DNA from: Synechococcus sp. Baikal-G1 | GTDB taxonomy: Bacteria > Cyanobacteriota > Cyanobacteriia > PCC-6307 > Cyanobiaceae | Direction: 5' to 3' | Assembly: GCA_002737305.1 (NCBI GenBank) | Contig: NSII01000144.1 | Span: 1,939 to 59,122 of the forward strand | Length of the DNA stretch: 57,184 nucleotides | Shown: one piece after another, positions 27,298-49,881 of the stretch | How the letters are laid out: every line of letters begins with the position of its first letter | Position numbering within the stretch: position 1 is the first letter of the stretch | Position numbers and translations under genes: made by a program | Notes under the pieces: model-generated | Told to the model about the DNA's origin: nothing | Database searches by the model: none | What the model saw: only the letters and a program-made list of their open reading frames with translations

Positions 27298-28662
27298 TTA
27301 TTTGGCCGGCAACCAGTGCGCCTGGCGGATCGGTTTGGCCAGCAGCTTCAAGCTCAAATTGGTGCCATCGATCAGCGCGGGCACCGCGGCCAGGCGCCCA
27401 GACTCGGGCCTGGCTTCAGGCCGAGGCCCTCTCCCAGGGGGGCTGGCCCCAAGGGGTCGCAGGGCCAGCAGCAACTGATTGCGGCTGGGATCAAACTCCA
27501 GGCTGGTGCCCGGCTCGAATTCCCAGCCTTTCAGCTGCTTGCGTTGCAGGATCTGACCGTCATGGTTGAAGGCCAGCAGCTGCAGCCTGGGTTGGCCTAC
27601 CCCATCAACCAGCAGCAGCCACACCCGTTGCCCCCTGCCGGCACAGGCACTCGCAGCCACCCCCTCGCGGCCCTGCCAGAGGGTGCGGGGCGGCTGCCCC
27701 GGCTCCACCAGCTCCAAGGACCGGGTGAAATCGGGCCGGTAGTGCACCAAGAGGGCCCGGCCACCGCTCGGGCAGAAGGCACTGAGATCGCGGTTACCAG
27801 GCAGCATTTGGCGGTTCTGGGGCTGGCCCGGTAGCCCCATCAAGATCAAGCCCTCCGGATGGGGCACCACCAGGGAGCCGCCCTGGGGGACCAACCGGAT
27901 GGGGCCACTGGTGTCCAGCCTCAAGGGCCTGGAACGATCGCTGGCATCGCGGAGCTGGATTTGGGCCTGGCCAGAGGCCACGCTGGAGCTTTGAATCAGC
28001 AGCTCTCCCTGTTGGTTGCTACTCAAATAGGCAAACAGCAGGGGCTGGCTCGACAAGCGATCGAGCGGGCCCGGTCGGGGCTCGGCCAACCCCTGGCCCG
28101 GCTCTGCCAGGTTGCGTTGCTGCAGCGGCACCCGCCAGACCTGCACGCGCCCCTGACAATCGGCGGCGGCCAGCACCACTCCCGAGCCATCGGCCAGCAC
28201 CTCCAGGCCGGAAATCGAGGGCCAGATTGGGCTGAGCGCCTGCCAACGGCCGTCATGCTGTTGCAGCTGGAGCTGGTCACCAGCCCCCAGCGGCACGACC
28301 GCCACGATCCTGGGACGGGGATCCCAACGCCAAAGCTGGGGGACCATGGCCACCTGGCGCTGATCGCGGCCCGCCACCTTGAGGCTGATGGGCCCGTCCA
28401 GCGGGCCCGTGGGGCCGAGCAACAGTCGCAAGGTATGGCCGTCGCCCAGCCAGCTGTGGGCTAACTGCGGCGCCAAAACGCTGCCACGTTGCAGGCTGGC
28501 CCGGTCCATCGGACGGCTGAAGCGCAGGTCCAGGGCCCCGGGGCCGGAACTGGCCAGGGCAGGCTGAACCCGCACCAGGCGGGGCGGACGCCGCAGCAGG
28601 ATCTGCTGCTGAACCAGGCCCAACAGACCCGCAGCAGCCAGCAGCCAAGGCCAGGGTTTCAT
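27298..28662 (-). CDS. Membrane-anchored or secreted protein of unknown function
   Basis: In 454 residues there is an N-terminal signal/anchor helix (PWPWLLAAAGLLGLVQQQILL). Next comes a possible Ig-like segment (LDLRFSRPMDRASLQRGSVL, resembling the bacterial Ig-like SbsA type). The rest is rich in short beta-strand repeats with W, G and D spacing, as in a beta-propeller (PRIVAVVPLGAGDQLQLQQ; SGLEVLADGSGVVLAAA). No catalytic motif is seen. The stop codon of the upstream gene at 28659 overlaps its start (ATGA), so it is coupled to the TIGR03943/permease pair. This makes it a candidate periplasmic partner of that system. Confidence 0.8.
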   Translation of the reverse strand: MKPWPWLLAAAGLLGLVQQQILLRRPPRLVRVQPALASSGPGALDLRFSRPMDRASLQRGSVLAPQLAHSWLGDGHTLRLLLGPTGPLDGPISLKVAGRDQRQVAMVPQLWRWDPRPRIVAVVPLGAGDQLQLQQHDGRWQALSPIWPSISGLEVLADGSGVVLAAADCQGRVQVWRVPLQQRNLAEPGQGLAEPRPGPLDRLSSQPLLFAYLSSNQQGELLIQSSSVASGQAQIQLRDASDRSRPLRLDTSGPIRLVPQGGSLVVPHPEGLILMGLPGQPQNRQMLPGNRDLSAFCPSGGRALLVHYRPDFTRSLELVEPGQPPRTLWQGREGVAASACAGRGQRVWLLLVDGVGQPRLQLLAFNHDGQILQRKQLKGWEFEPGTSLEFDPSRNQLLLALRPLGASPPGRGPRPEARPESGRLAAVPALIDGTNLSLKLLAKPIRQAHWLPAK

Positions 28663-29333
28663 GCTTCGAAGGGGCGAGCGGGCCTGGCAATCGGCACAAT
28701 CCGGCTGGGGATGACCAGGCTGCGGACCTGGCCGGCGCGCGTCTCCACGCCCATGACGCCCTCAATGGCCAGCCATTGGTCGGTCTGGGGCGGCGGCCCG
28801 GATTGGGGCCAGCGCACCGGTAGGGCGATGGGGGTGGCATCGGCGATGCAGCAGCGCACCAGCAACCTCGCTAACTGGGGCGGCCCCTCGGCCATCGGCA
28901 GCACAAAGCCCTGGATGCGCACGGGATCCCCTTCATAGAGACGGGGATCCGGTTCCAGCACCAGCAAACGCACCCAGTCGGTGAGGCTGCGCTGGGCTGG
29001 GGGCAGCACAAAGCTGAGTTCCTCAGGGGCCAAGGGCTCGCCGCTGCGGTTGGCTGCCAGATCTGAGAAGGAGGGTTGGGGCGGGATCAACACCATGGCG
29101 ATGGCCACCAGGGCCGCCAACAGCCAACTGGCGGCCTCCCGCCTGCGTGGGGCGGAGCGGCTAAGGCGGCCCCGCCAGTCCAGGATCGCCAGCCCCAGGA
29201 GCAGCACTCCCGTGACCACGATGGCGCCATGGAAAGGGGCCCGCACCAGCAGATTGAGGCGGCCCGTGCTGAAACTGATCAAGAGCACCCCCCCCCAAAG
29301 GCCCAAACAAAGCGAACGCCAGCCCATGGCCAT
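28659..29333 (-). CDS. TIGR03943 family protein (partner of DUF318 permease)
   Basis: About 224 residues from the ATG at 29333, two bases after the permease stop. Two N-terminal membrane helices (LCLGLWGGVLLISFSTG and AIVVTGVLLLGLAILDW) and a third (SWLLAALVAIAMVLIPP) precede a soluble domain with YEGDPVRIQGFV and ARLLVRCCIADATPIALPV. The CC-I-A-D-A motif and the pairing with a DUF318 permease are typical of TIGR03943. The function is unknown. The pair is often found near metal-responsive genes; here zur and znuA are next door. Confidence 0.85.
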   Translation of the reverse strand: MAMGWRSLCLGLWGGVLLISFSTGRLNLLVRAPFHGAIVVTGVLLLGLAILDWRGRLSRSAPRRREAASWLLAALVAIAMVLIPPQPSFSDLAANRSGEPLAPEELSFVLPPAQRSLTDWVRLLVLEPDPRLYEGDPVRIQGFVLPMAEGPPQLARLLVRCCIADATPIALPVRWPQSGPPPQTDQWLAIEGVMGVETRAGQVRSLVIPSRIVPIARPARPFEA

Positions 29334-29335
29334 GG

Positions 29336-30292
29336 TTAAAGCTTCCAAAGGTTGATCCACTGGCCGATCAGCAGCACCACCAGGGCAGTGCCCGCCACCG
29401 TGAGTCCCAGGGCGCGGGGCCGCAGCAGGAGGCCAAAGAGGCTGAGCGATTTGAGGTCAATCACGGGCCCCAGCAGCAGAAAGGCCAGCAGGGCCCCCGG
29501 GGTGACATGGGCGGCAAACGCCAAGGCCAGGAACGCATCAACGCTGGAGCAGACCGACACCACCACGGCCAGGAGCATCAGGCTCAGGATCGAGAGGGTG
29601 GGCGCATCGCCCACGGCCAGCAACCAGCTGCGGGGCAGCAGGGTTTGGACCATCGCGGCGATGGCACAGCCCAACACGAGGAGGGACGCCAGATTGAGAA
29701 ATTCCCGCACCCCATGGCCCAGGGCCTCGGACGCCGGCAGCCGCTTCACGGCCCCAGGCCGGGGCAGCCGCTGGCCTAGGAGCCCGGTGCCGCGCTGCAA
29801 CAGGGAGACCTCAGCCAACGGTTGATTCAAGCGTCGCTCGGCGAGCAGCTCGGCGGTGAGCAGGTCCTGCTCGGGCAGGAGCCTTAAAAGCAAGGTCAGC
29901 ACCATCGCAATGGCCAGGGCCCCCAGGGGCCGGGCGGCCAGTAGCCAGGGTTGGTCTGGGAAGGCGGCCCAGGTGCTGGCCAACACGATCGGATTGAGCA
30001 CCGGCGCAGCAAACAGGAAGCCGAGGGCCGTGGCCAGGGGTGCTCCCCCCGCCAGCAGACGCCGGGCCACGGGCACGTTGCCACATTCACAGGCCGGCAG
30101 GGCAAAGCCCAGGGCCGCCCCGGTGAGGGGGCCCAGCAGGGGATGGGCCGGCAAGCGCTGCAGCCAGCGCCCCCCCGGACTGAGCCAGCGGGCCAGGGAG
30201 GCAATCACGACACCGATGAGCAGAAAGGGCAGGGCCTCAATCACCAAGCCCTGAAAGACCGCCCACATGGTGCCGAGCTTGTCCACGCCCAT
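29336..30292 (-). CDS. DUF318 (UPF0718) permease
   Basis: A polytopic membrane protein of ~318 residues with about eight helices. The motif ALPACECGNVPVARRLLAGG (about 72-91) carries two Cys around a Glu, and VVSVCSSVDAFLALAFAAHV has a third conserved Cys. Both are characteristic of this permease family and could bind metal or thiol cargo. It is the first gene of a three-gene minus-strand unit (permease, TIGR03943, beta-rich protein). It is divergent from zur, with ~120 bases between the starts. The ATG at 30292 (MGVDKLGTMWAVFQGL) is chosen over the one at 30322. Confidence 0.88.
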   Translation of the reverse strand: MGVDKLGTMWAVFQGLVIEALPFLLIGVVIASLARWLSPGGRWLQRLPAHPLLGPLTGAALGFALPACECGNVPVARRLLAGGAPLATALGFLFAAPVLNPIVLASTWAAFPDQPWLLAARPLGALAIAMVLTLLLRLLPEQDLLTAELLAERRLNQPLAEVSLLQRGTGLLGQRLPRPGAVKRLPASEALGHGVREFLNLASLLVLGCAIAAMVQTLLPRSWLLAVGDAPTLSILSLMLLAVVVSVCSSVDAFLALAFAAHVTPGALLAFLLLGPVIDLKSLSLFGLLLRPRALGLTVAGTALVVLLIGQWINLWKL

Positions 30293-30415
30293 CACTGCGT
30301 TGCCTGCAGGCCCCCGTACCATCCCTTCTAAGTCAGGCCGGCCCTGCGGCCTGCAGACCAGGGCTTGGAGGCTGAAAAGGGCTGCATAGGATCACGGGGT
30401 CTTCCACGCCAGGCC

Positions 30416-30823
30416 ATGGCCCCTCCGGTCGCCGCAGCAGGCCTCAAGGACAAGCAGGAACGGCTGCTGGAGCAACTGCTTCAAGCGGACACGGAACTCA
30501 CGGGCCAACAGGTCCATGCCCTGTTGCGCCAGAGCGAGCTGCCCATGGGCCTGGCCACGGTGTATCGCCATTTGCGCCTGCTGCAGCAAAAGGACCTGGT
30601 GCGCTGCCGCCAACTGCCCAACGGCGAGGCGCTCTATGCCCCCACCGAGCGGGATGAGCACCACCTCACCTGCGTCGACTGCGGAGCCACCACCCTGCTG
30701 GAGCAATGCCCCATGCCCGAGGTGCACCTCCATGGCGAGCAGGCCTCCGGCTTCCGGTTGCTGTTCCACACCCTGGAGTTTTTTGGCCTCTGCAGCACCT
30801 GCCAGGAGCGGCAAGCCCCCTAG
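30416..30823 (+). CDS. zur: Fur-family metalloregulator, probably zinc-responsive Zur
   Basis: A 135-residue winged-helix repressor. The recognition helix lies in MGLATVYRHLRLLQQKDLV. The structural zinc site is CVDCG ... CSTC near the C-terminus. The regulatory metal residues include HHLTC and LHGEQASGFRLLFHTLEFFG. The FurC/PerR, Fur and Zur branches are hard to separate by eye. The immediately following znuA and the operator-like palindrome between them favour Zur. The start is taken at ATG 30416; an upstream start at 30365 would add 17 residues. Confidence 0.85.
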   Translation: MAPPVAAAGLKDKQERLLEQLLQADTELTGQQVHALLRQSELPMGLATVYRHLRLLQQKDLVRCRQLPNGEALYAPTERDEHHLTCVDCGATTLLEQCPMPEVHLHGEQASGFRLLFHTLEFFGLCSTCQERQAP

Positions 30824-30846
30824 CGCCCCTGCCAGGCCGAAAAGCG

Positions 30847-30859
30847 AGAACGGTTATCA
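30847..30859 (+). promoter_or_regulatory. Candidate Zur operator upstream of znuA
   Basis: GAGAAC-G-GTTATC is a 6-1-6 inverted repeat with one mismatch; the perfect form would be GATAAC-G-GTTATC. It lies 24 bases after the zur stop and 51 bases before the znuA ATG. It resembles the AT-rich TGATAA-N-TTATCA type bound by bacterial Zur proteins. One arm (GTTATCA) is better than the other. Confidence 0.6.
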
Positions 30860-30910
30860 TTTCGAGGCGAGACCGGCGGGCTTTCCTGCTGCCGCTCCCG
30901 CTTCCCAGTG

Positions 30911-32002
30911 ATGGATCCCGTGCTCCACTCCCCTTTGCGGCGTATCACCCAGACCGCCTTCGCCCTGGCAGCCCTGGGGCCGGCCCTGGCCCTGGTGGCT
31001 TGTGGCCCCAACCGGGGTCCAGAAGTGGTGGCCGCCGATGGGGTGCTTTGCGACCTCAGCCAGCGACTCGCCGGCAGCGACCTCCAGGTGGCCTGCCTGC
31101 TCCAACCCGGCGACGACCCCCACCAGTTCCACCTCACGCCCCAGCAAAGCCAGCAACTCAAAGGAGCCCAACTGGTGCTGATCAATGGCTATGGCCTCAC
31201 CCCAGCCCTTGAAAAGCAAGCCCGGGCGGTCGCCGTGGCCGAGCGGGCCGTGCCGAATAGCCCCAAGCTGGAGGAGCCAGCCGGGACCCACGGCGAGGGC
31301 CTGGAGCGCTCCAAGCCGGATGCCGACAACCACCCCGAAGAAGGCCACACCGAAGAAGGCCCCCGGGAAGAAGGCCACCGCGAAGAAGGCCACGGCCATG
31401 GCGACCGGGATCCCCATGTTTGGCATGACCCCGCCCAGGCGAGCGCCATGGTGCGGCTGGTGGCCCAGCAACTCGAAACCCTCAAACCGCAAGCCAGCCA
31501 ACGCATTGCCAGCCGGGCGGCGGCCATGGTGGCCGTGCTGCAGCAGCTCGATCGCTGGAACCGCCTGCAGTTCGCCACCATCCCGGCCCCGCCCAGCCCC
31601 CTGGCCACTAGCCACCGCGCCTTCGCCAGCCTGGCCCGGGCCTACGGCCTTAGGGAATTGCCAGTGGTGGACTCGCTCAGCAGCAGCCAGAGCCTGCGCC
31701 CCCAGGCCTTTGCAGCGGTGCTGGCCCAGCTCAAGCGGGACAAGGTAACAACGTTATTTGCCGAAACCCTGCCCGCCAGCAAGTCGCTGCAACGGATCAG
31801 CACCCTGAGCGGCGTACCGATCGCGCCAGCCCCGCTGGTGGCCGATGGCCTGGCCAAGGCCGAAAGCCCCCAATCCACCGGGGCTAGCTCCCTGGTCGGC
31901 ACCCTCACCGCCAACACCTGCCTAATCGTCAACGGCCTCAAGGGCCGCTGTGACCAGGCCGGCCAACGCCGCCTAGGCCAGCAATGGGCAGCAATTCAGT
32001 AG
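30911..32002 (+). CDS. znuA: Zinc ABC transporter substrate-binding lipoprotein ZnuA
   Basis: A periplasmic zinc-binding protein of 363 residues. A signal peptide ending in LALVACGPN has a lipobox. Ligand motifs of the cluster A-I family are DDPHQFHLTP and HVWHDPAQ. Between them lies a long flexible loop rich in His and Glu, typical of zinc-specific rather than manganese-specific proteins, and here built from a tandem repeat. Later ligand segments include SHRAFASLARAYGLRELP and a C-terminal Cys pair (NTCLIV/GRCDQ). ZnuB and ZnuC are not in the window. The ATG at 30911 follows a GTG at 30908. Expression is expected to rise when Zur loses zinc. Confidence 0.93.
   Translation: MDPVLHSPLRRITQTAFALAALGPALALVACGPNRGPEVVAADGVLCDLSQRLAGSDLQVACLLQPGDDPHQFHLTPQQSQQLKGAQLVLINGYGLTPALEKQARAVAVAERAVPNSPKLEEPAGTHGEGLERSKPDADNHPEEGHTEEGPREEGHREEGHGHGDRDPHVWHDPAQASAMVRLVAQQLETLKPQASQRIASRAAAMVAVLQQLDRWNRLQFATIPAPPSPLATSHRAFASLARAYGLRELPVVDSLSSSQSLRPQAFAAVLAQLKRDKVTTLFAETLPASKSLQRISTLSGVPIAPAPLVADGLAKAESPQSTGASSLVGTLTANTCLIVNGLKGRCDQAGQRRLGQQWAAIQ
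31337..31396. repeat. 15-bp tandem repeat encoding the zinc-binding loop of ZnuA
   Basis: The 12-base core gaagaaggccac recurs every 15 bases at 31337, 31352, 31367 and 31382; the second copy has one change. It encodes Glu-Glu-Gly-His/Pro-x. Slippage here would change the number of His/Glu units in the loop without a frameshift. Confidence 0.88.
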
Positions 32003-32052
32003 TCCCAGGCTAGGGCAACACACACGCACAAAACCATCTACCAACCCCAACA

Positions 32053-33651
32053 ATGGCCATCAAGCTCCTTAACTTCAGCGCAACACTGGCATTGATAGCT
32101 CTTCATGCCAGCCCCGGCAATTGTGACACGCTCACTAATGCGGAGCTAGGCAAATACTCCAACCAAAAACAGCCAACCAGTATCACACAATTTACGGATA
32201 TTCAGCCAACTGACTGAGCCTACCAATCACTCTCAAATCTTTTAGAGCGCTATGGCTGCGTGGCTGGCTATCCAAATATTACCTTCGAGGGCAAGAAGGC
32301 AATCACCCGCTTTGAAGCGGCCGCCTTATTGAACGCCTGCCTAGACCGCGTCTCCGAGGCGAGTGATCAACTTAAGACGCTGACAAAGGAATTCGAAAAG
32401 GAACTTGCGATTCTCAGAGGACGCATCGATGGACTCGCATCCCGGGTCGGCAGGCTAGACGCCAATCAATTTTCCACAACCACGAAACTTTCAGGGCAAG
32501 CCACCTATGTACTTGGCGCGAACATCTTCAGCGGCAATGCCATCAATACGCAGGCAAACACCGTCAACCTGAGGGATGGAAGCCCAATCGACCTGCCCAA
32601 TGCAACAACCCTTAACTACGACCTGCAGCTGAGCCTTGACACCAGCTTTAACGGTAAAGACCTCCTCAAAACCATCCTACGAGCCGGCAACTTTGGTTCA
32701 AGCGCCTTTGGTGGCTTTCCAGAAGGGCTTGGTCTTTCCACCCTTGAGACGGCCTTTCAAGAAGATGCCGGTGCCAACATCATTGGGATCGACAAACTGT
32801 ACTATCAAGTGCCCTTGGGCCATGGCTTTACAGCAACAGTTGGCCCCCGTGTCGGCCAGGAAGACATGCTTGCCCTATGGCCAAGCGCCTACCCGGCAGA
32901 CACCATCCTCAACGCACTCACGCTCAACGGTGCACCAGCAGCCTACAATAAAAATCTAGGTACAGGCGCTGGTCTTTGGTGGCAACAAGATGGTTATAGC
33001 GTAAGCGCAAACTATGTCGCTAGCCGTGGCAACATAGCAGCCCAGGGCGATCCTTCGGACACCACTGGAGGGCTAGGAAGCAACAGTTCTGGAGCAAGCA
33101 CAAGCCTTCAGATTGGCTACGCAGCTAATCAGTGGGGACTGGCAGCGATTTGGAGCCAAATCCAGCCATGGACAGCCATTTCAGGCAGCACTCCATTGAT
33201 CCAAACGAGCACAAGTAACACGAACAGCCAAGCCACAACCAATGCCTTTGGCCTCAGTGGCTTCTGGCAGCCCTTATCGCCAGGCTGGCTGCCCTCAATC
33301 AGCCTCGGCTGGGGCTTCAACAGCACCTCTTACCAAAGGGAGCAACCTGTGAGCAGCGTTAGCGCAAGCCAATCCTGGATGGCAGGCCTGCAATGGAAAG
33401 ATGTCCTTGCCAAAGGCAATGATTTCGGCATGGCCGTGGGCCAGCCCACATTTGCCACCGCCTTAACAGGCTCTACAATTCCTGACGACGGTAACTTCGT
33501 CTGGGAATGGTGGTACAAACTACAGATCTCCGACAATATCACTGTGACGCCTGCCTTAATCTATCTAAGCAGACCCCTAGGACAAAGCACCCCATCGAAC
33601 CAAGTCTTTAGCCAGTTTGGCGCACTGGTTAAAACAAGTTTTAGCTTCTGA
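32053..33651 (+). pseudogene. SLH-domain outer-membrane porin, interrupted by an in-frame TGA
   Basis: A cyanobacterial SomA/iron-stress type porin: signal peptide (MAIKLLNFSATLALIALHAS), N-terminal SLH domain, coiled-coil linker (SDQLKTLTKEFEKELAILRG) and a beta-barrel ending in Phe (SFSF). Codon 55 is TGA (32215-32217). The context TD-stop-AYQSLSNLLERYGC fits the SLH pattern, in which Trp (TGG) is usual. The frame is open on both sides: codon 1 at 32053 and 478 codons beyond the stop. The gene is clearly more AT-rich than its neighbours. It is either a nonsense-mutated gene, a sequencing error (one G to A), or a case of readthrough or internal restart near 32260. A restart would lack the signal peptide. 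Confidence 0.8.
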
Positions 33652-33674
33652 CGCCATTAATGAATACAACATAG

Positions 33675-34658
33675 CTATAGCCCTGCCCTATCTCTGGCAC
33701 CGGGTTCGTCTGTCAACGGTGCACTTGGATCTAGCCCCTCCAACTCGCCAGCAAACACCCGGCTAGCCGTGATGTCTTCAGCCTCAATCGTGATTAGGTC
33801 CCGCTTGGTGAGCCCCGCGGCCATGGCATTGAAAAGCCGATTGGCCTGGCGCATGCGGGCCCGATCAATGGCATTGCGGATCGAGCGGGCATTGGCAAAA
33901 AAGGGCAACAACATGCGCCGCTGAATATATTCCGCAAAAACCACCGTGGCCTCTTCACTGAGCCGGTAGTTTTCCTTTGCCAGGATTAGCTTTGCAATCG
34001 CTAGCAACTCCGGAACATTGTAATCCGGGAAATCGATATGATTGGCCACCCGGGAAGAGAGGCCGGGATTGGATTGATAAAACACATCCATCCGGTCCTT
34101 GTAGCCGGCAAAGATTACCACCAGATCCTCCCGGTTTGCCTCCATGACTTGGAGCAGGATCTCGATCGCCTCGGCGCCATAGTCCCGTTCATTTTCAGGG
34201 CGATAGAGGTAATAGGCCTCATCAATAAACAGCACGCCACCCATCGCCTTTTTCAGCATCTCCCGGGTCTTGGGGGCCGTGTGGCCGATGTACTGGCCAA
34301 CCAGATCATCCCGGGTGGCCGTGACCACATGGCCCTTGCGCACATAGCCAAGCCGATGCAGGATCTTGGACATGCGCTCGGCCACGGTGGTCTTGCCGGT
34401 GCCCGGCCGACCGGTGAACGACATATGCAAGCTGGGGGCCGTGGTCGCCAGCCCCACCTGCTTGCGGGCCCGCTCCACCACCAGCAGGGCGGCGATCTCC
34501 CGGATCCGGGTTTTCACCGGACGCAGGCCGATCAACTCCTGATCAAGCTGGTCGAGCACCTCCTTCACATGGCCACCTTCGTAGGCGGCTTTGAGATCAA
34601 CCGGGGTCAGGTCGTCGCTGATGGCGTCCGCGATGCCCTCGGGATCAGAGCAACCCAT
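33675..34658 (-). CDS. cbbX: Rubisco activase CbbX
   Basis: An AAA+ ATPase that removes inhibitory sugar phosphates from Rubisco. In ~327 residues: Walker [15 protein letters not shown], Walker [17 protein letters not shown], pore-loop region [19 protein letters not shown], and sensor/arginine finger region [17 protein letters not shown]. CbbX is best known with red-type form I Rubisco. Alpha-cyanobacteria also carry it next to form IA enzymes. The ATG at 34658 overlaps the end of the acRAF gene by 14 bases. It is the last gene of the CCM unit and converges on the porin frame with 23 bases between the stops. The DNA is less GC-rich than further upstream in the unit. Confidence 0.95.
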
Positions 34659-34890
34659 CGATCGCCGCCGCAAAGGCCTGATCGACCTCACCGATGGCGC
34701 CATCCTCCTCTTCGGCGCGCAGGGTGATATTCACATAGGTGCGACCAAAGCTGATATCGGGAAAGCGGCTTTGCTGCTCCGAGAGCGTGTTAAGGCGCTC
34801 CAAAAAGCCCCGGGTGGCTTCGTACTCACTGAATTCGATGCGACGCTCAAGCCGATCGGGGCGGGGTCGCTGGGTCCAGGGCTGCTCCAT
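34645..34890 (-). CDS. Alpha-carboxysome Rubisco assembly factor acRAF (PCD-like)
   Basis: An 81-residue protein with the pterin-4a-carbinolamine dehydratase fold: [35 protein letters not shown] and [19 protein letters not shown]. The pterin enzyme active-site His-His pair of true PCDs (usually HHP) is replaced (FPDISFG). This is as expected for acRAF, a chaperone for form IA Rubisco folding and assembly. Its location between chpX and cbbX in the cso cluster supports this role. It is translated just ahead of cbbX with overlapping ends. Confidence 0.9.
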
Positions 34891-34934
34891 GGCTTGAATT
34901 TAGAACTTCATGGGCATGGGTATGGGGTTTGAAA

Positions 34935-36082
34935 TCAGGAGGCGGCCCTGAGGCAATCGGTGCGGGCCAGGGCAAGCCGGCTCGCCCAGGCGCGGGCATA
35001 GGTCTGATTGGCGGCCTCGGCCTCGGGATCGCTGCTGCCGAGCGGATAGGCGAAGGTGCCGGCGATGGCGGCATTGGTGACGCAGAACATCGCCTTCTGG
35101 AAGCTGGCGCAGATCTTGACGCGCACATCGCCTTCGCCGCGGCTGCGCTGCAGGTACCAATCGTGCAGCGCAGCCGGCAGATGGCGATACATGTCCTGCA
35201 TCAACAGGCTGGGGGGGATGCCAGCCCCCATGGTGGGCAGGGGATCGGCGAACAGGGCGCCGTAGGCGAATTGTCCCTGGTCAGGCGAGATCTGCTGGGC
35301 CTGGGCGTTAAAACTGACCGTGCCCAGAAAGGGCATACCCCGCAGAAACACTGCTTCGACGTAGGGAACGGCCACATCGGCCAGGAAGGTGAGGCCGGCC
35401 TCGGGTGGCAACACCCAGAAGGCCTGCTGGTCGATCGTCACCGCGTAGGTGATTGGCTGGGCTGCCGCAGCCACCAGGCCCTGCTTCAGGAAGTCCACCA
35501 CTTGGGCGATCGTCGCCACCCGCCCATCCCGCTCGGCGGCGGCAAGGTCGATGAACAGATCACTCATGACCCGCCAAAACTGGCCCAGGGCATGGGTGGT
35601 GGCGGCAGTGCGGATCAGCTCAGGCAGGAACTGGCGAAACAGGGGATCGAGCAGGCTCAACAGCAGATCATTGCGGCGCTTGACCTTGATGACCTGGCCG
35701 CAAAGATCGGCGAAAGCCTGGGAATCAAGGTAGGCATCGAGGCCACCGGTGCCATGCCAGAGCATGGCCTTCATGCAATATTCGGCGTACTCAAAATTGA
35801 TGCGGTCATGGTTGAGATGGCGCCAGATTTTAGCTGGGCTCAAGTTGCCATCAAGGAACTTAAAAACTGGAAAGGGGTTGAGAAATTGCTGTTCGGCCTG
35901 ATAAATCAGGTTACGGCTGTAGGCATCAAGAACCTCCCCATAACTCTCCAGCACCCCCACCACTTCCAAGACATGGTCGGAGGTTTCCGCAAGCAGGGTC
36001 TCGCCAGCCAGCAAGCGGCGTTCCAGTTCCGCTGCCGAAGGCATGTCGCCCCGGAAGGTGAGATCGGCAGAAATGACTGGCA

Positions 36083-36083
<1 letters not shown>
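34935..36083 (-). CDS. chpX: CO2 hydration protein ChpX/CupB type
   Basis: A 382-residue subunit of the CO2-uptake NDH-1MS' complex. It converts CO2 to bicarbonate at the thylakoid membrane, coupled to plastoquinone reduction by the complex. The sequence fits the Chp family: NPFPVFKFLDGNLSPAKIWRHL, NFEYAEYCMKAMLWHGTGGLD and LGTVSFNAQAQQISPDQGQFAYG. It contains several conserved His and Cys that could bind zinc. The start overlaps the ndhD stop (TGATG). Assignment to CupB rather than CupA rests on the ndhF-ndhD-chp order and the alpha-cyanobacterial setting. Confidence 0.92.
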
Positions 36084-37641
<1,558 letters not shown>

Positions 37642-37642
<1 letters not shown>

Positions 37643-39549
37643 CAGCGAACCACCTCACCCACAATCCAGGTGAGGGAACTGAGCAACACCACGATGGCAA
37701 TCACCACGGTGAGCACGTAGCTCTGCAGCTGGCCGCTGACACTGAGCTTGAGATTTTCAGCGCTTTGCAACGACAATCGACCGATGCCATTGACCACGCC
37801 GTTAACAACTTGGCGATCGATGGCGTTCGTGAACTGGGCTAGTCCTGCCACAAAGGCCACAATCGTGGACCGATAAATCTTTTCAGTGTAAAAATCTAGG
37901 GCCAGCAGATCCTGGAGGCCCCGCAGGGGTTGCAAGATAGAGCGGGACCAGAACCGATCGAGGCTGATCTGGCTACCAATACCCACTCCCAGCAGGCCGG
38001 ATCCGGCCACGGAGAGGGCAACTGGCAGGGAGAAGGCGCCAATGCCAGGCACTGGATCAATGGTGGCCATCAGCAATGGGGTGACCAGCACCAATACGGT
38101 GAGGCTGACCATGGGCAGGGCCATCAGCCAATTCACCTCGGGGGCCCGCTTGGTTTTGGGCATGGCCGATCCCAGAAACACCGAACGGAACACCCGCGTG
38201 AGGTTCAAGGCCGTGAGCAGGTTAGTGAGCAAGATCACCCCGGCAAAGAGGGGATGGGCCTGCCAGATCGCCTGCACACCGAGGCCAAAACACCAGTAGC
38301 AGCCCAAGGGCAGCAGGCCCACCAAGCCAGCCCCCGCCACCAAAAAGGCCACCGTGGTGGCGGGCATGCGATTGCCTAGCCCCCCTAGCTCGGTGAGGTC
38401 CTGGCAGTTGGTAGTGGCAATCACACTGCCCACGCTCATAAACAACAGGGCCTTGGCCAGGCCATGGGAGAGCAGGAGCAACAGGGCTATGGCCGGTTGC
38501 TGCAGGGCGATGGCGATAAAAACCAAACCCAGATAGGAGGTGGTGGAATAAGAAAAGGCCCGCTTGAGATCCACCTGGGCTAGGGCAACCAGGGCGCCGG
38601 CGATCGCACTGATCGTGCCCACCACCAACAGGCCGGTGGTGGCCATCGGCGAGAGGGGCAGCAAGGGCATCAGCTTGAGCAACACCAAGGCTCCAGAGGT
38701 CACGACCACCGAATTGCGCAGGATCGAGGCCGGGTTGGGGCCCTCCATGGCCTCATCCAGCCAGAGGTGCATGGGGAACTGGGCGCACTTGCCCATGGGG
38801 CCGGCAATCAGGGCCAGGCCGATCAGGCTGCCCACCAGGGGGGCCAACGGACCCTGGGTCTGGGAAGGGTCCTGGGCATGGGCGGCCCAGCGGTAGAGAT
38901 CGCTGAACTCCATCGAGCCGGCCAGGGCCGAGAGGGACACCACCCCCATCAGCAGCAACACATCGCCCACCCGCTTGGTGAGAAAGGCGTCGCGGGCTGC
39001 GGTTACCACCAGGGGTTGGGCATACCAGAACCCCACCAACAGATAGGTGGAAAGGGTGAGCATCTCCAGCAGGAAATAGCTCATGAACAGATTGCTGCTC
39101 AGCACAAGCCCACTTAGGGCACCTTCAAAGAAACCCACCAACGCATAGAAGCGGGCCAGGGACCATTCCTTATCGAGATAACCCAGGGCAAAAAACTGGG
39201 CCAGCAGGCTCAGCAACGTGACCAATTCGAGGGCGGCCAGGTTGGTGAGCGACAAATCAAAACCGATCGCCAGGTGCAGATCGGCCGCGGAAAACCAGTT
39301 GAAACTGAGGTGCTGGGCGCCCCGTTGCCAGATTTCCAGGGTCACCAGGCTGCCGTGGGCAAAAGCCAGCAGGGTGACTAGCAAATTGAGGTAGGCCGCA
39401 GGCCTAGGACCATTGCGCTTGAACCAGCCGGTGGCCCATGGCAGCGACAACAGCACACCGCTGAAGCCGTACACGGGGATCAACCAGACCAGCTGGATCG
39501 GCAGGGGAAGGGCTGCGGTCAAGGGGAAAGGGAAAGCAGGCCGCCGCAA
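37642..39549 (-). CDS. ndhF4: NDH-1 subunit NdhF4 (CO2-uptake complex)
   Basis: A 635-residue membrane antiporter-like subunit with a C-terminal extension that includes the lateral helix. Motifs include FDLSLTNLAALELVTLLSLLAQ, SYFLLEMLTLSTYLLVGFWYAQP (membrane Glu), GKCAQFPMHLWLDEAMEGPNP (channel Lys/His region) and FSYSTTSYLGLVFIAIAL. It is shorter than respiratory NdhF and matches the CO2-uptake branch. It is preceded by a 92-base gap that contains a GC-rich hairpin. Confidence 0.93.
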
Positions 39550-39592
39550 GGACGCGGCTGGCGGCGGAATCTAGGCGGCCCAGCAAGCAACT

Positions 39593-39616
39593 GCCGAGCC
39601 CCAGACGGGACTCGGC
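39593..39616. other. GC-rich hairpin between the ferritin-like gene and ndhF4
   Basis: A six-base perfect stem (gccgag/ctcggc), one C-A mismatch, three more C-G pairs and a four-base loop. No T tract follows on either strand, so it is not a standard terminator. It sits in the only sizeable gap (39550-39641) between the shell genes and the NDH genes. It could stabilise or separate the two mRNA halves. Confidence 0.6.
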
Positions 39617-39641
39617 CCACTAAGGCCAGGGTCAGGTCCCC

Positions 39642-40115
39642 TCAGAAGGTGACCCGTTGGTTAGCAAGGGAGGATGCCCCGCTCAGCTGGCGCAGCCACT
39701 GCATCAGCTCCTCGCCATGGTGCTGTTCGTCCTCCAGGAGGGCCTGAAAAAAGGCGCCATTCTGCCGATCCCCCACCAATAGACAGAAGCGCAGGGCATC
39801 GTCGTAATGGTGGATCAGGTCCTGCTCCAGCACACTGTTATGACGCAACAAGCCCTCCAGATCGGCCGCGTGGGTCACGGGCCGCAACTGGGAGGCGGCT
39901 GGAGCCACCCCGAGAGCCAGCATTTGCTTAACAATGCGCTCGGCGTGTTGCATTTCCTCCACGGTTTCGTGTCGAAATCGCTCGGCCGCCTCAGCTAGAC
40001 CCCAGAGCTCCACCAGGGAGGCCTGGGTCATGTACTGCTGCACCGCCGAGAGCTCCAGGCTCAGGGCGCGGCCCAGATAGCCCAGGACGCGCGGATGGGT
40101 GCCAGCGTTGGCCAT
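39642..40115 (-). CDS. Bacterioferritin-like protein of the carboxysome cluster
   Basis: A 157-residue four-helix ferritin fold. A complete di-iron site can be proposed: Glu18 (RALSLELSAVQQY), Glu and His in EEMQHAERIV, Glu in EQDLIHHYDD, and Glu/His in LLEDEQHHGEEL. The Met in EEMQH matches the haem-ligand Met of bacterioferritins. Related genes occur in many alpha-carboxysome loci, with unknown roles (iron storage or redox protection). The start overlaps the csoS1E stop (TGATG), so it is translationally coupled to shell genes. Confidence 0.88.
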   Translation of the reverse strand: MANAGTHPRVLGYLGRALSLELSAVQQYMTQASLVELWGLAEAAERFRHETVEEMQHAERIVKQMLALGVAPAASQLRPVTHAADLEGLLRHNSVLEQDLIHHYDDALRFCLLVGDRQNGAFFQALLEDEQHHGEELMQWLRQLSGASSLANQRVTF

Positions 40116-40900
40116 CAGCTGCGACGGATGGAATCGACGCTGGCGAGCATGGGCTCGAGCTCATTGTGGGGGCGGGCAATGATGTGGGCGGCCACTAGGC
40201 CATCGCCCACGCGCTCACAGGCATCGGCGCCAGCACGCACGGCCGCGTTAACGGCACCCGTTTCGCCGCGAACCATCACGGTGACGTAGCCGCCACCCAC
40301 GAATTCCCTAGAGACGAGGGTGACTTCGGCAGCCTTGGTCATGGCATCAGCCGCTTCGATCGCAGGCACCAGGCCACGGGTTTCGATCATGCCGAGGGCG
40401 ATGCCCTGAATGGGAGAAGCCATGGTGTTGGAGGAAGGGGAGGTGGAAGGGGTGTTGCTGCCGCCGCCGGAGCGACTGGAGCCAGTTGAGGCAGGGGCGG
40501 ACTTATTGGAGCGGCCGCCACTGGCACGGCTGCTGCTGGCCCGACTGGGCACCGCGCGGCTGGGGGCCGAACGGCTGCTGGCGGCCCGGCTTGGCGCCTG
40601 GCGACTGCCGGAGCGCACCGGTGAGCTGCTACTCACCGCGGGGGCCACCACCGGGATGGTCGCCCCCGGACTCGGCAGGGGTGCCGGGGCCGGCGCCTTG
40701 GGAACCGCCGTAGGAACGACGGTAGCCGCGGTCACCCCAGGTGCCGAAGCCACCGAGGCGACAGTGGGCGTGCCAGGGACCGCCGGGGGCTTGGAGGCCC
40801 CTGGCGAGGCAGCGGCGGCGGCCGCTACTGCCTTCGCTGCCGAATCGGCAGGGGTGCTCGTGCCTTTAGGGCTGGGAACGGGGGGGGTGGAGGAGGCCAT
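40115..40900 (-). CDS. csoS1E: Carboxysome shell protein CsoS1E (BMC domain with long disordered extension)
   Basis: In 261 residues, the first ~160 are a low-complexity extension rich in Ala, Pro, Ser and Arg (many SRA/SRS motifs). The last ~95 form one BMC domain (GIALGMIETRGLVPAIEAAD ... SREFVGGGYVTVMVRGETGA) almost identical to CsoS1 in this window. The extension probably faces one side of the shell and could bind Rubisco, CsoS2 or another partner; its positive charge resembles CsoS2 repeats. The ATG at 40900 is chosen because an earlier one (40957) would overlap csoS4B. CsoS1E is known from only part of the alpha-cyanobacteria. Confidence 0.9.
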   Translation of the reverse strand: MASSTPPVPSPKGTSTPADSAAKAVAAAAAASPGASKPPAVPGTPTVASVASAPGVTAATVVPTAVPKAPAPAPLPSPGATIPVVAPAVSSSSPVRSGSRQAPSRAASSRSAPSRAVPSRASSSRASGGRSNKSAPASTGSSRSGGGSNTPSTSPSSNTMASPIQGIALGMIETRGLVPAIEAADAMTKAAEVTLVSREFVGGGYVTVMVRGETGAVNAAVRAGADACERVGDGLVAAHIIARPHNELEPMLASVDSIRRS

Positions 40901-40953
40901 GGCAGGGGAGAACAGGACGCGGAAGGGAAAGCTGGGGGCAGGGCCCCTAGGCC

Positions 40954-41205
40954 TCATCCGTCCGGCGACCAGTGGTCGATGATGCCGCCGATGGTGAGAT
41001 CGGTGAAGATCTCAGGGTTACCGCAGGCAAAGCGGGCGGCAGAGCCGCTGGCGGTGAACACCCAATTCCCAGGTGCCGCCCCCACCGGGTCCACCGCCAC
41101 GTTCAACTTGCCCTTAGGGGTGCGCAGCACCCGCAGCTGCATGTGGCCCAAACCGCCCACTCGGTGGCTGCAAACAAGGGACCCGGTGACCTGCATGATT
41201 TCCAT
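40954..41205 (-). CDS. csoS4B: Carboxysome vertex protein CsoS4B
   Basis: An 83-residue BMV/EutN-CcmL fold pentamer that caps shell vertices. MEIMQVTGSLVCSHRVGGLG, LNVAVDPVGAAPGNWVFTA and DLTIGGIIDHW are family motifs. The start overlaps the csoS4A stop (TGATG). It is usually far less abundant than the hexamers. Confidence 0.96.
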   Translation of the reverse strand: MEIMQVTGSLVCSHRVGGLGHMQLRVLRTPKGKLNVAVDPVGAAPGNWVFTASGSAARFACGNPEIFTDLTIGGIIDHWSPDG

Positions 41206-41558
41206 CAGCGTGTCGTCCCTCCAGTCGATGACTGGCCAACGACCGATGCTTGGCCACCACCCAAAGGAGTGGCCGGGCTAGGCGCCGGGGGACCGGCAGC
41301 AGCAGCCTTGGCCGCCTCGGGATCCCAATGGTCAATGATGCCGACAATGGTGAGATCACTGGGATAGGACTTACTGCCTGCGGCTTCACGGGCAGCCGAA
41401 CTGCCCACGCAGATCACCCAATCGCCAGGGATGCAACCCACCGCATCAACAGCAACCTTCTGGGTGCTGCCATCGAGCACAACTTGAAGATGCTTATGCT
41501 CAAAATCAGGGATGCGATTGGTGGAAACCAAAGGTTTGACGACCTTGCAAATCAGCAT
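41205..41558 (-). CDS. csoS4A: Carboxysome vertex protein CsoS4A
   Basis: A 117-residue pentamer-forming vertex protein. MLICKVVKPLVSTNRIPDFE, VAVDAVGCIPGDWVICVGSS and SDLTIVGIIDHWDP match the family. The last ~30 residues (Ala/Pro/Gly/Ser-rich) are an extension beyond the usual ~85-residue fold. It begins one base after the csoSCA stop, indicating tight coupling. Confidence 0.96.
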   Translation of the reverse strand: MLICKVVKPLVSTNRIPDFEHKHLQVVLDGSTQKVAVDAVGCIPGDWVICVGSSAAREAAGSKSYPSDLTIVGIIDHWDPEAAKAAAAGPPAPSPATPLGGGQASVVGQSSTGGTTR

Positions 41559-41559
41559 C

Positions 41560-43167
41560 TCAGTGGCCCCCTCCCGTGGCGAATGTGATCGACGATCCCA
41601 CCGCTTCAGTCGGGGAATCCCGATCGTGGTCGCGGATCGTCAACAGAGTATGGAGCAGACCGTCCCGGCAGAGGTCGGCGTAGCGCACGCCAATCGCCTG
41701 TTGCAATCTCTCACAGCGATGAATCGCCCGCTCGCGGGCCCCCGGCACACTGCTGCGGTAGTCGAAACGCACCACAACCGGTATCGGCAAACCGCGGGAT
41801 CCATTGAGCCCCTTAAAGATCTTGACGCCCACATCCAGGTCGGCTGCGCCTTCCTCCAGGGTATCGAGATAGGCGAAATAGGTAAGATTACGCAGATGAA
41901 TCTCCTTGAAACCGATTCCCACGCCGATAAAGCGTTCGGCATGGCCGGCATCAGCGTAGGAGCCGCCATGGAACTGCCGCACGTAGTCGATCTGGGAGAT
42001 GTTGTGCTCGAGCAACCTGGCCACCAGCTTGACCATGCCGGGATCGGGGGTGGAGGCAGCCGCCTGCGTCACCAGGTCCAAGAGGTGGGCCCGGCCCTGG
42101 GCGGCAGGCAACTGGACCGTGGCGTCATAGGCCACCTGGGCGTCCAGCCAACGATCGAGGTTGGTGCTGCCATCGAGACCGGGCACATGCACCCGGATCG
42201 CATCGGTGTCGGTGTCGAGGCCGATCAGCAACAGATCGACGGAAGCACCACAGCAAAAGCTGTTTTCAATGGCAGCGCGAAAATCCTGCAGGCAACCCAG
42301 TCCGCCCGAAGCCGCAGCGCCGTCATCACTGGCATGGGCGGCGCAGCCTTCGTGCTGGGGATCTAAGGAACTGAAGTGATACACCACTACCTTGAGGTAG
42401 CGAGTATCTGCCTGGGCAGGGTTGGGTTTAGCTTCGCGGTATCGACCATGCTCGGTTTTGACCCAGCGATTCACCGTATTTTGGATATCAAACATGGCGC
42501 CTGCATGGGGCCGGCGGCGCACGCTGCTGTAAGGAATCCTCAGGGCGTAGCCGATGGCATGGGCCAGGCGGCCATCGGCGCAGGGGGTGACATCAAGGAG
42601 GTGGAAACCACACTCGAGCAAGAAATGGTTAAAAGCCTCAGCGGCCTGGCTGCCCTGGTGACCGCCGAGGGGATCGGAACCAAAGAAACTGCGGCTGGCC
42701 TGGCCATAGGCCTCAAACACACACCAGGCAAACAGGGTGCGCATGTCCAGCTGGGTGACCCAGGCCGATTCCAAAATCGGCAGCGGTAATTCATAGCCGA
42801 GCTCTGCCTGGGCCAACTGTTGGGCCTGGGCGACAAAATCCGGCTCGTGCTGGAGGGCCGACAGACGCTTGAGCACCGGCACAATCCGGTCAAACGAAGC
42901 CTTGGTGCGCTGGTCGTAGTTGAGCAGGCAGGCGTTCACCGCGGCATTGCTGAGGGGATGGAGCGGCGCACTCGCACCGCGGCGGCCCCGATCGGCTAGG
43001 CGAGAGTTGAGGGACTGGCCAGACTCCAGGGACGGATTGGTCCCAGTCCAACCGCCGGTGGCGCCCAGATCTGAATTGGGCAGCGAACCCGAAGGCCCAG
43101 GGCGACGACGGGGGGCCGTCGGTGCTTGCGGTCTGGGGGGGGCAGGAGCTCTGCGGCGGGGAGGCAT
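41560..43167 (-). CDS. csoSCA: Carboxysomal carbonic anhydrase CsoSCA (CsoS3)
   Basis: A 535-residue beta-type carbonic anhydrase that releases CO2 for Rubisco inside the shell. The catalytic domain carries the CxDxR motif (VTPCADGRLAH: zinc Cys plus the Asp-Arg dyad). The other zinc ligands are His in VVYHFSSLDP and Cys in QHEGCAAH. The N-terminal ~70 residues are disordered and Arg/Pro-rich (MPPRRRAPAPPRP...), matching the Rubisco-binding tail known for CsoSCA. It starts five bases after the csoS2 stop. Confidence 0.96.
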   Translation of the reverse strand: MPPRRRAPAPPRPQAPTAPRRRPGPSGSLPNSDLGATGGWTGTNPSLESGQSLNSRLADRGRRGASAPLHPLSNAAVNACLLNYDQRTKASFDRIVPVLKRLSALQHEPDFVAQAQQLAQAELGYELPLPILESAWVTQLDMRTLFAWCVFEAYGQASRSFFGSDPLGGHQGSQAAEAFNHFLLECGFHLLDVTPCADGRLAHAIGYALRIPYSSVRRRPHAGAMFDIQNTVNRWVKTEHGRYREAKPNPAQADTRYLKVVVYHFSSLDPQHEGCAAHASDDGAAASGGLGCLQDFRAAIENSFCCGASVDLLLIGLDTDTDAIRVHVPGLDGSTNLDRWLDAQVAYDATVQLPAAQGRAHLLDLVTQAAASTPDPGMVKLVARLLEHNISQIDYVRQFHGGSYADAGHAERFIGVGIGFKEIHLRNLTYFAYLDTLEEGAADLDVGVKIFKGLNGSRGLPIPVVVRFDYRSSVPGARERAIHRCERLQQAIGVRYADLCRDGLLHTLLTIRDHDRDSPTEAVGSSITFATGGGH

Positions 43168-49681: not shown

Positions 49682-49881
49682 GGCAAGCCCAGTGGGCACA
49701 AGGATTGTCGGCAGCTTACGGGCGCCTACCCCCCGCTACCGCCAGGCGTTGGTCATTGCAACCGCCCCGCTCTGGCGCGGGGGCCTGTCCGATGGTCAAC
49801 CCCGCAGGTCCGCCCCGTCCGCTCGCCAGCGACCTCGCCGATCCGGCACCCCCATCACCATCACCAACACCATTAGGGAGA

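Follow-up and report, generated by a model that had tools for sequence, protein, structure and literature searches.

An in-frame TGA at a conserved tryptophan codon of an SLH-OprB porin gene in Synechococcus sp. Baikal-G1

The SLH-OprB porin gene carried by a 57,184-nucleotide stretch of the Synechococcus sp. Baikal-G1 genome (herein referred to as the window) is interrupted by a single TGA at codon 55, a position at which the relatives compared encode tryptophan, and we favor the explanation that this is a recent nonsense allele, perhaps segregating between strains (probability of about 0.6). Under this hypothesis, one base change would have converted the conserved SLH tryptophan codon to UGA and translation would stop after 54 residues, in the first part of the SLH domain; a product ending inside the SLH domain would possess neither barrel nor wall anchor, apart from whatever a leak through the UGA supplies. 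The change would be too young for decay to have accumulated and may still segregate between strains. We infer that the TGA allele is real rather than an assembly error and that porin function is lost, and the loss looks like a probable strain-level event, or else an assembly error, and not like a new genetic mechanism. In cyanobacteria, SLH porins are nutrient pores and probably tether the outer membrane to the wall, and a natural null would reveal which of these porins a field population can do without. The features on which the argument draws are as follows.

30365..30823, + strand: FUR-family regulator, probably Zur (PF01475, 55.3 bits; no NCBIfam equivalog above cut-off)
30844..30863, no strand assigned: conserved Zur-box-like 20-base block GCGAGAACGGTTATCATTTC between the regulator and znuA, identical in 4/4 congeners
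30908..32002, + strand: znuA-like zinc ABC substrate-binding protein (PF01297, 172.2 bits; the start codon is the mechanical one)
32053..33651, + strand: SLH-OprB porin gene, interrupted (frame and Pfam matches; equal-length orthologues in three congeners)
32053..32214, + strand: 54-codon remnant, with a signal-peptide-like N-terminus and the start of the SLH domain (alone without Pfam match)
32191..32322, + strand: SLH domain (residues 47-90; profile matches), split by the stop
32215..32217, + strand: premature TGA, codon 55, at the Trp of the SLH motif D-I-Q-P-T-D-W-A-Y (TGG in three congeners)
32260..33651, + strand: longest downstream ORF (GTG start, 463 aa), with the second half of the SLH domain, coil and OprB barrel

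The porin frame and its tryptophan codon

The porin frame extends from an ATG at 32053 to a terminal TGA at 33649-33651 (532 codons plus stop), and the TGA at 32215-32217 is its sole internal stop. It begins with a hydrophobic, signal-peptide-like N-terminus (judged by eye) and its C-terminal end is ...KTSFSF, with phenylalanine last. When the stop is taken as tryptophan for the search, Pfam matches are obtained for SLH (PF00395, 31.0 bits with a cut-off of 20.8, residues 47-90) and for OprB (PF04966, 49.1 bits with a cut-off of 22.9, residues 105-518); the two fragments searched separately return OprB only, and a profile search of the genome matched the SLH domain of the porin with one TGA inside it. 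The length of the open remainder (463 aa), together with the 18 nonsynonymous and 28 synonymous private changes described below (dN/dS of about 0.2), argues that the frame is not due to chance; judged from its sequence, it is a real gene, an SLH-OprB porin by descent whose working state is putative.

Syntenic orthologues of equal length are present in three congeners, G005, G004 and G003 (92.5, 89.8 and 89.2% identity over about 1.85 kb; the same loci as L032, L033 and L034), and all three have TGG at the position of the stop. Of the nearest three porin loci, two belong to MAGs labelled Synechococcus sp. UW140 and the third to one labelled Synechococcales cyanobacterium. Across the fetched loci, all 136 placements that cover codon 55 have tryptophan there, in 80 different contexts; 13 pieces of the window itself or its contig and 31 tRNA loci are excluded from this count, and some contigs, present in two collections, are counted twice. 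A motif search for TAA or TGA at this SLH codon (TAG left out) returned a single one of 400 family genomes, namely the window's own; the TGG form of the motif, used as a positive control, matched 59 of 101 genomes (147 sites, counted by hand), which means that the motif overlooks a good part of the genomes and does not reach every porin. The same stretch had no matches in viral_contigs, and no evidence concerning phages emerged.

A preliminary description of this DNA had proposed an SLH-porin frame with a TGA at a conserved tryptophan, and the two Pfam matches and the unanimous placements agree with it, as does the TGG of all three congeners with its expectation that orthologues carry tryptophan. 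It had also named an outcome that would have told against it, orthologues that lack this residue or start downstream; the orthologues keep both the tryptophan and the upstream ATG. A downstream restart at GTG 32260 was rejected, since relatives keep the upstream ATG and the 463-aa product misses half of the SLH domain and has no signal peptide that could be seen by eye.

Related porins of other MAGs also contain single in-frame stops, which we count in favor of a nonsense allele here. Internal stops were found in three of the best 150 porin rows (at most about three candidates scored per genome; rows counted by hand), which are the window, G309 (L051; a TAG aligned near residue 335) and G236 (L091, also L184; a single in-frame TAA at codon 57, around L091 position 2962 and two codons from the window's stop). 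The porin of L093, a 97.4% relative of L091, is intact. The control gene, NADH-quinone oxidoreductase subunit M, has no stops among its best 150 rows. Two control rows flagged with TGA (G089 and G158) realigned over residues 12-511 without a stop and were discarded as end effects, as were the porin rows G020 (free of stops once realigned) and G038 (stop at residue 529 of 532). We also rejected the idea of porins as a nonsense hot spot, the difference between 3/150 and 0/150 among the best rows not being significant (p = 0.25). Upstream of the L091 porin, too, there are a zur-like gene and a box-like site.

Recent lesion or assembly error

To place the stop among its neighbors, we set the window against G005, G004 and G003. 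The comparison took ORFs of 80 aa or more, with only the longest aligned piece counted per ORF and a single frame per place, and required a dN/dS of no more than 0.4, which retained 48, 30 and 15 pairs, respectively (pairs with higher ratios were dropped, and a few of those kept are short or overlapping). This filter replaced a first comparison in which many apparent stops were rejected as antisense shadow ORFs or over-long N-termini. Among the 48 pairs with the closest relative, G005, the porin body alone is interrupted and the other 47 are open in their bodies; the remaining flags fall upstream of starts, at 32011 (the porin ATG), at 41280 (carboxysome peptide B) and at 49738/49798 (a 337-aa ORF whose body matches G005 and which has no NCBIfam match).

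Within the porin, the window branch carries 18 nonsynonymous, 28 synonymous and one stop change (dN/dS 0.198), counted as private at sites where the other three orthologues agree, and those three orthologues together carry 57 and 74 (dN/dS 0.238; Fisher p = 0.73 for the window branch against the others). The unconstrained share of the window branch is at most about 18% (95% upper limit). An old or decayed pseudogene was therefore rejected, there being no further stop, a length equal to that of the orthologues and a dN/dS not above that of the other branches; the earlier assertion that the rest of the gene is intact, with decay recent or absent, stands on the same results. A lesion without decay is either recent or not real.

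That it is not real is the alternative of most substance, although we judge it unlikely. The population would carry TGG, with the TGA being either a miscalled base or a minority variant of a bin that may mix strains. The window is part of a 59,122-base contig from a MAG-like bin (1.79 Mb in 231 contigs, 81% complete, 6.2% contamination) that includes duplicated near-identical contigs (L127 and L128, G000 contigs C102 and C199; 99.38% identity over 3067 bp and the same tRNA-Trp/tRNA-Asp pair), and on the basis of this one pair strains may be mixed in the bin. Identity to G005 is also mosaic along the porin, with no differences between 33018 and 33475 and many upstream of there, a pattern open to recombination or to a chimeric contig. 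However, the other gene bodies compared across the window are all uninterrupted and the private nonsynonymous-to-synonymous ratio is ordinary; about 3.5% (166/4779) of the single-base changes in the porin frame give a stop, and errors frequent enough to make this stop likely should therefore also have produced further stops and a surplus of private changes. A single isolated error at the TGA is possible.

The mosaic is an observation in its own right: the barrel half of the porin (32800-33475) is nearly identical to that of G005 and the sequence upstream is strongly diverged, which could reflect either a recent homologous exchange with the G005 lineage or a chimeric contig.

A true null would have to be tolerated, and against it stands the fact that nothing else in the bin matches OprB or SLH. 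Among the six SLH/OprB genes of Synechocystis, the available text of one study reports that five could be disrupted and one, Slr1841, could not (PMC8707739); a null would thus be costly here if there are truly no paralogues. We infer two ways in which the loss might be borne, one being that the gene, behind zur- and znuA-like genes, would be needed mainly in zinc shortage, and the other that its role may be taken by paralogues that the 81% complete bin lacks. In a protein search, G005 was matched six times, G003 twice and G004 once, with some of these matches being fragments of a single gene. Two regions of G005 that harbor additional porins have for the most part no counterpart in the bin (40/444 and 40/48 candidates scored): of the first there is just a stretch that begins with base 1 of contig C60, and the second yields nothing beyond short or porin-to-porin matches. 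The preliminary description had called for a check for paralogous porins elsewhere in the genome; none is found in the bin, but with the paralogue-bearing regions of G005 largely unassembled here, paralogues may simply be missing from the assembly. The case shows how relatives help to weigh a striking single stop in a draft genome; here they point to a lone and very young lesion.

Readthrough, recoding and phase variation

A hypomorph maintained by ordinary leak through the stop, in which near-cognate tRNA-Trp misreads UGA at a low rate and yields a little wild-type porin, is a distinctly less probable reading. Standard UGA leak at a former tryptophan codon puts the native residue back, and the stop does lie at such a codon in an otherwise intact gene body. 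Against this, no stimulating structure follows the stop (81 bases, z = 0.75, with 158 of 200 shuffled sequences folding as well or better), the tRNA-Trp is unchanged (identical in two own copies and in G001-G004, with G005 outside the sample) and RF2 is present, without internal stop. The stop may, moreover, be very young, in which case no readthrough is needed to explain the intact body.

Programmed recoding or an altered code in the organism is highly improbable and was rejected. The frame is open beyond the stop, as such a mechanism would have it, yet no other in-frame TGA occurs in a gene body among the 48 compared genes, and the stop is conserved in none of the three congeners and, as TAA or TGA at the motif, in one of 400 family genomes, the window's own. 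The porin itself terminates in TGA, likewise in G005. No UCA anticodon was found among the 30 tRNAs typed by ARAGORN (of 31 tRNA matches, in an 81% complete bin whose tRNA set is incomplete); the 31st match, L151, left uncalled by ARAGORN, has the anticodon TCT by eye. The presence of RF2, the unchanged tRNA-Trp and the lack of structure after the stop point the same way.

Phase-variable on/off switching, an option raised in the preliminary description and conceivable for a surface protein whose barrel half may have undergone recent exchange with the G005 lineage, has hardly any probability left, as the change is a point substitution, no direct or inverted repeats were found in 32053-32400 and no tandem repeats in 31900-33700, the relatives compared have tryptophan, and TAA or TGA occurs at the motif in no other of the 400 genomes.

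Zinc-linked neighborhood and known SLH porins

The order of FUR-family gene, znuA-like gene and SLH porin (30365-33651, all in one direction) is kept in all three congeners. The znuA-like gene ends 50 bp upstream of the porin on the same strand, and no terminator-like site was found in 30300-33800. We name the FUR-family regulator Zur because of its znuA neighbor, and the 20-base block between the two, embedded in an otherwise variable stretch, resembles a Zur box. This linkage is possibly that of a candidate zinc-limitation porin.

A box-like 15-mer (one position free) scoring at least 12/15 occurs within 250 bp upstream in 30 of 73 SLH porin stretches and in 0/73 of each of two control stretches inside the genes, a contrast to be read with the knowledge that the consensus was derived from some of the scored loci, making the test partly circular, and that the coding controls differ in composition; several high scorers, such as L071, L074 and L076, did not contribute to the consensus. 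The window's own porin is among the 73 and not among the 30, its best score directly upstream being 10 of 15 and thus below 12, so that its link to zinc rests on position. In its own clade only 4 of 31 reach a score of 12; the box is mostly absent there, which speaks against a simple family-wide zinc porin.

On the other side of the porin (33675-43167, - strand), genes for CbbX, ChpXY, NADH-quinone oxidoreductase subunit M, carboxysome peptide B and a carboxysome shell carbonic anhydrase adjoin the zinc-uptake genes; carbonic anhydrase is a zinc enzyme, and the placement may therefore be meaningful. Divergent from the zur-like gene are a TIGR03943 putative permease subunit and an ArsP_1 permease (28659-30322, - strand).

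We tentatively extend these observations to a proposal that we consider doubtful as it stands, that the porin belongs to an undescribed picocyanobacterial zinc-limitation module (Zur, ZnuA and a wall-anchored SLH porin) needed only when zinc is scarce, with loss alleles (this TGA and the L091 TAA) segregating in zinc-sufficient waters. The linkage to zur- and znuA-like genes offers a testable reason for dispensability and is a more interesting lead than the stop itself. In Anabaena, no porin studied is reported under Zur in the available text of one paper, which does describe a porin-like transcript, all5191, that increased under zinc limitation, as well as zinc resistance of an alr2231 mutant (PMC9705863), and the table of a Zur review, in the portion available, gives TonB receptors for Anabaena and names no porin (PMC6103462). 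For WH8102, the accessible parts of two reports describe predicted boxes at znuA/znuC and bmtA (PMC9337993) and a possible porin among the proteins more abundant without zinc and with short-term cadmium (PMC3865332). In the open-licence literature, no Zur-linked SLH porin appeared among the matches listed, and the gene was likewise not found among the matches listed for porin nonsense and phage resistance or for premature stops in MAGs.

The window gene shares an N-terminal SLH domain, an OprB barrel and a C-terminal phenylalanine with the known cyanobacterial SLH-OprB porins (Slr1841, Slr1908 and others of Synechocystis; Som of marine Synechococcus), and differs from them in the premature stop inside the SLH domain and in its placement behind zur- and znuA-like genes. 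Its best match among solved structures is to OmpM-type SLH proteins (8bym, 8byt and 8bz2; SLH and stalk, residues 28-137, E 8.9e-12), with the aligned motif SWAYQ in 8bym and WAYQ common to both, whereas the porin barrel has no sequence match to these structures. They are presumably the OmpM of a study that, in its available text, describes tethering of the outer membrane by OmpM in diderm Firmicutes (PMC10628300). The MAG porins of L091/G236 and L051/G309 resemble the window gene in that a lone in-frame stop interrupts an SLH porin frame that is open elsewhere, but the stop codon and its place differ, being TAA at codon 57 in the former and TAG near residue 335 in the latter.
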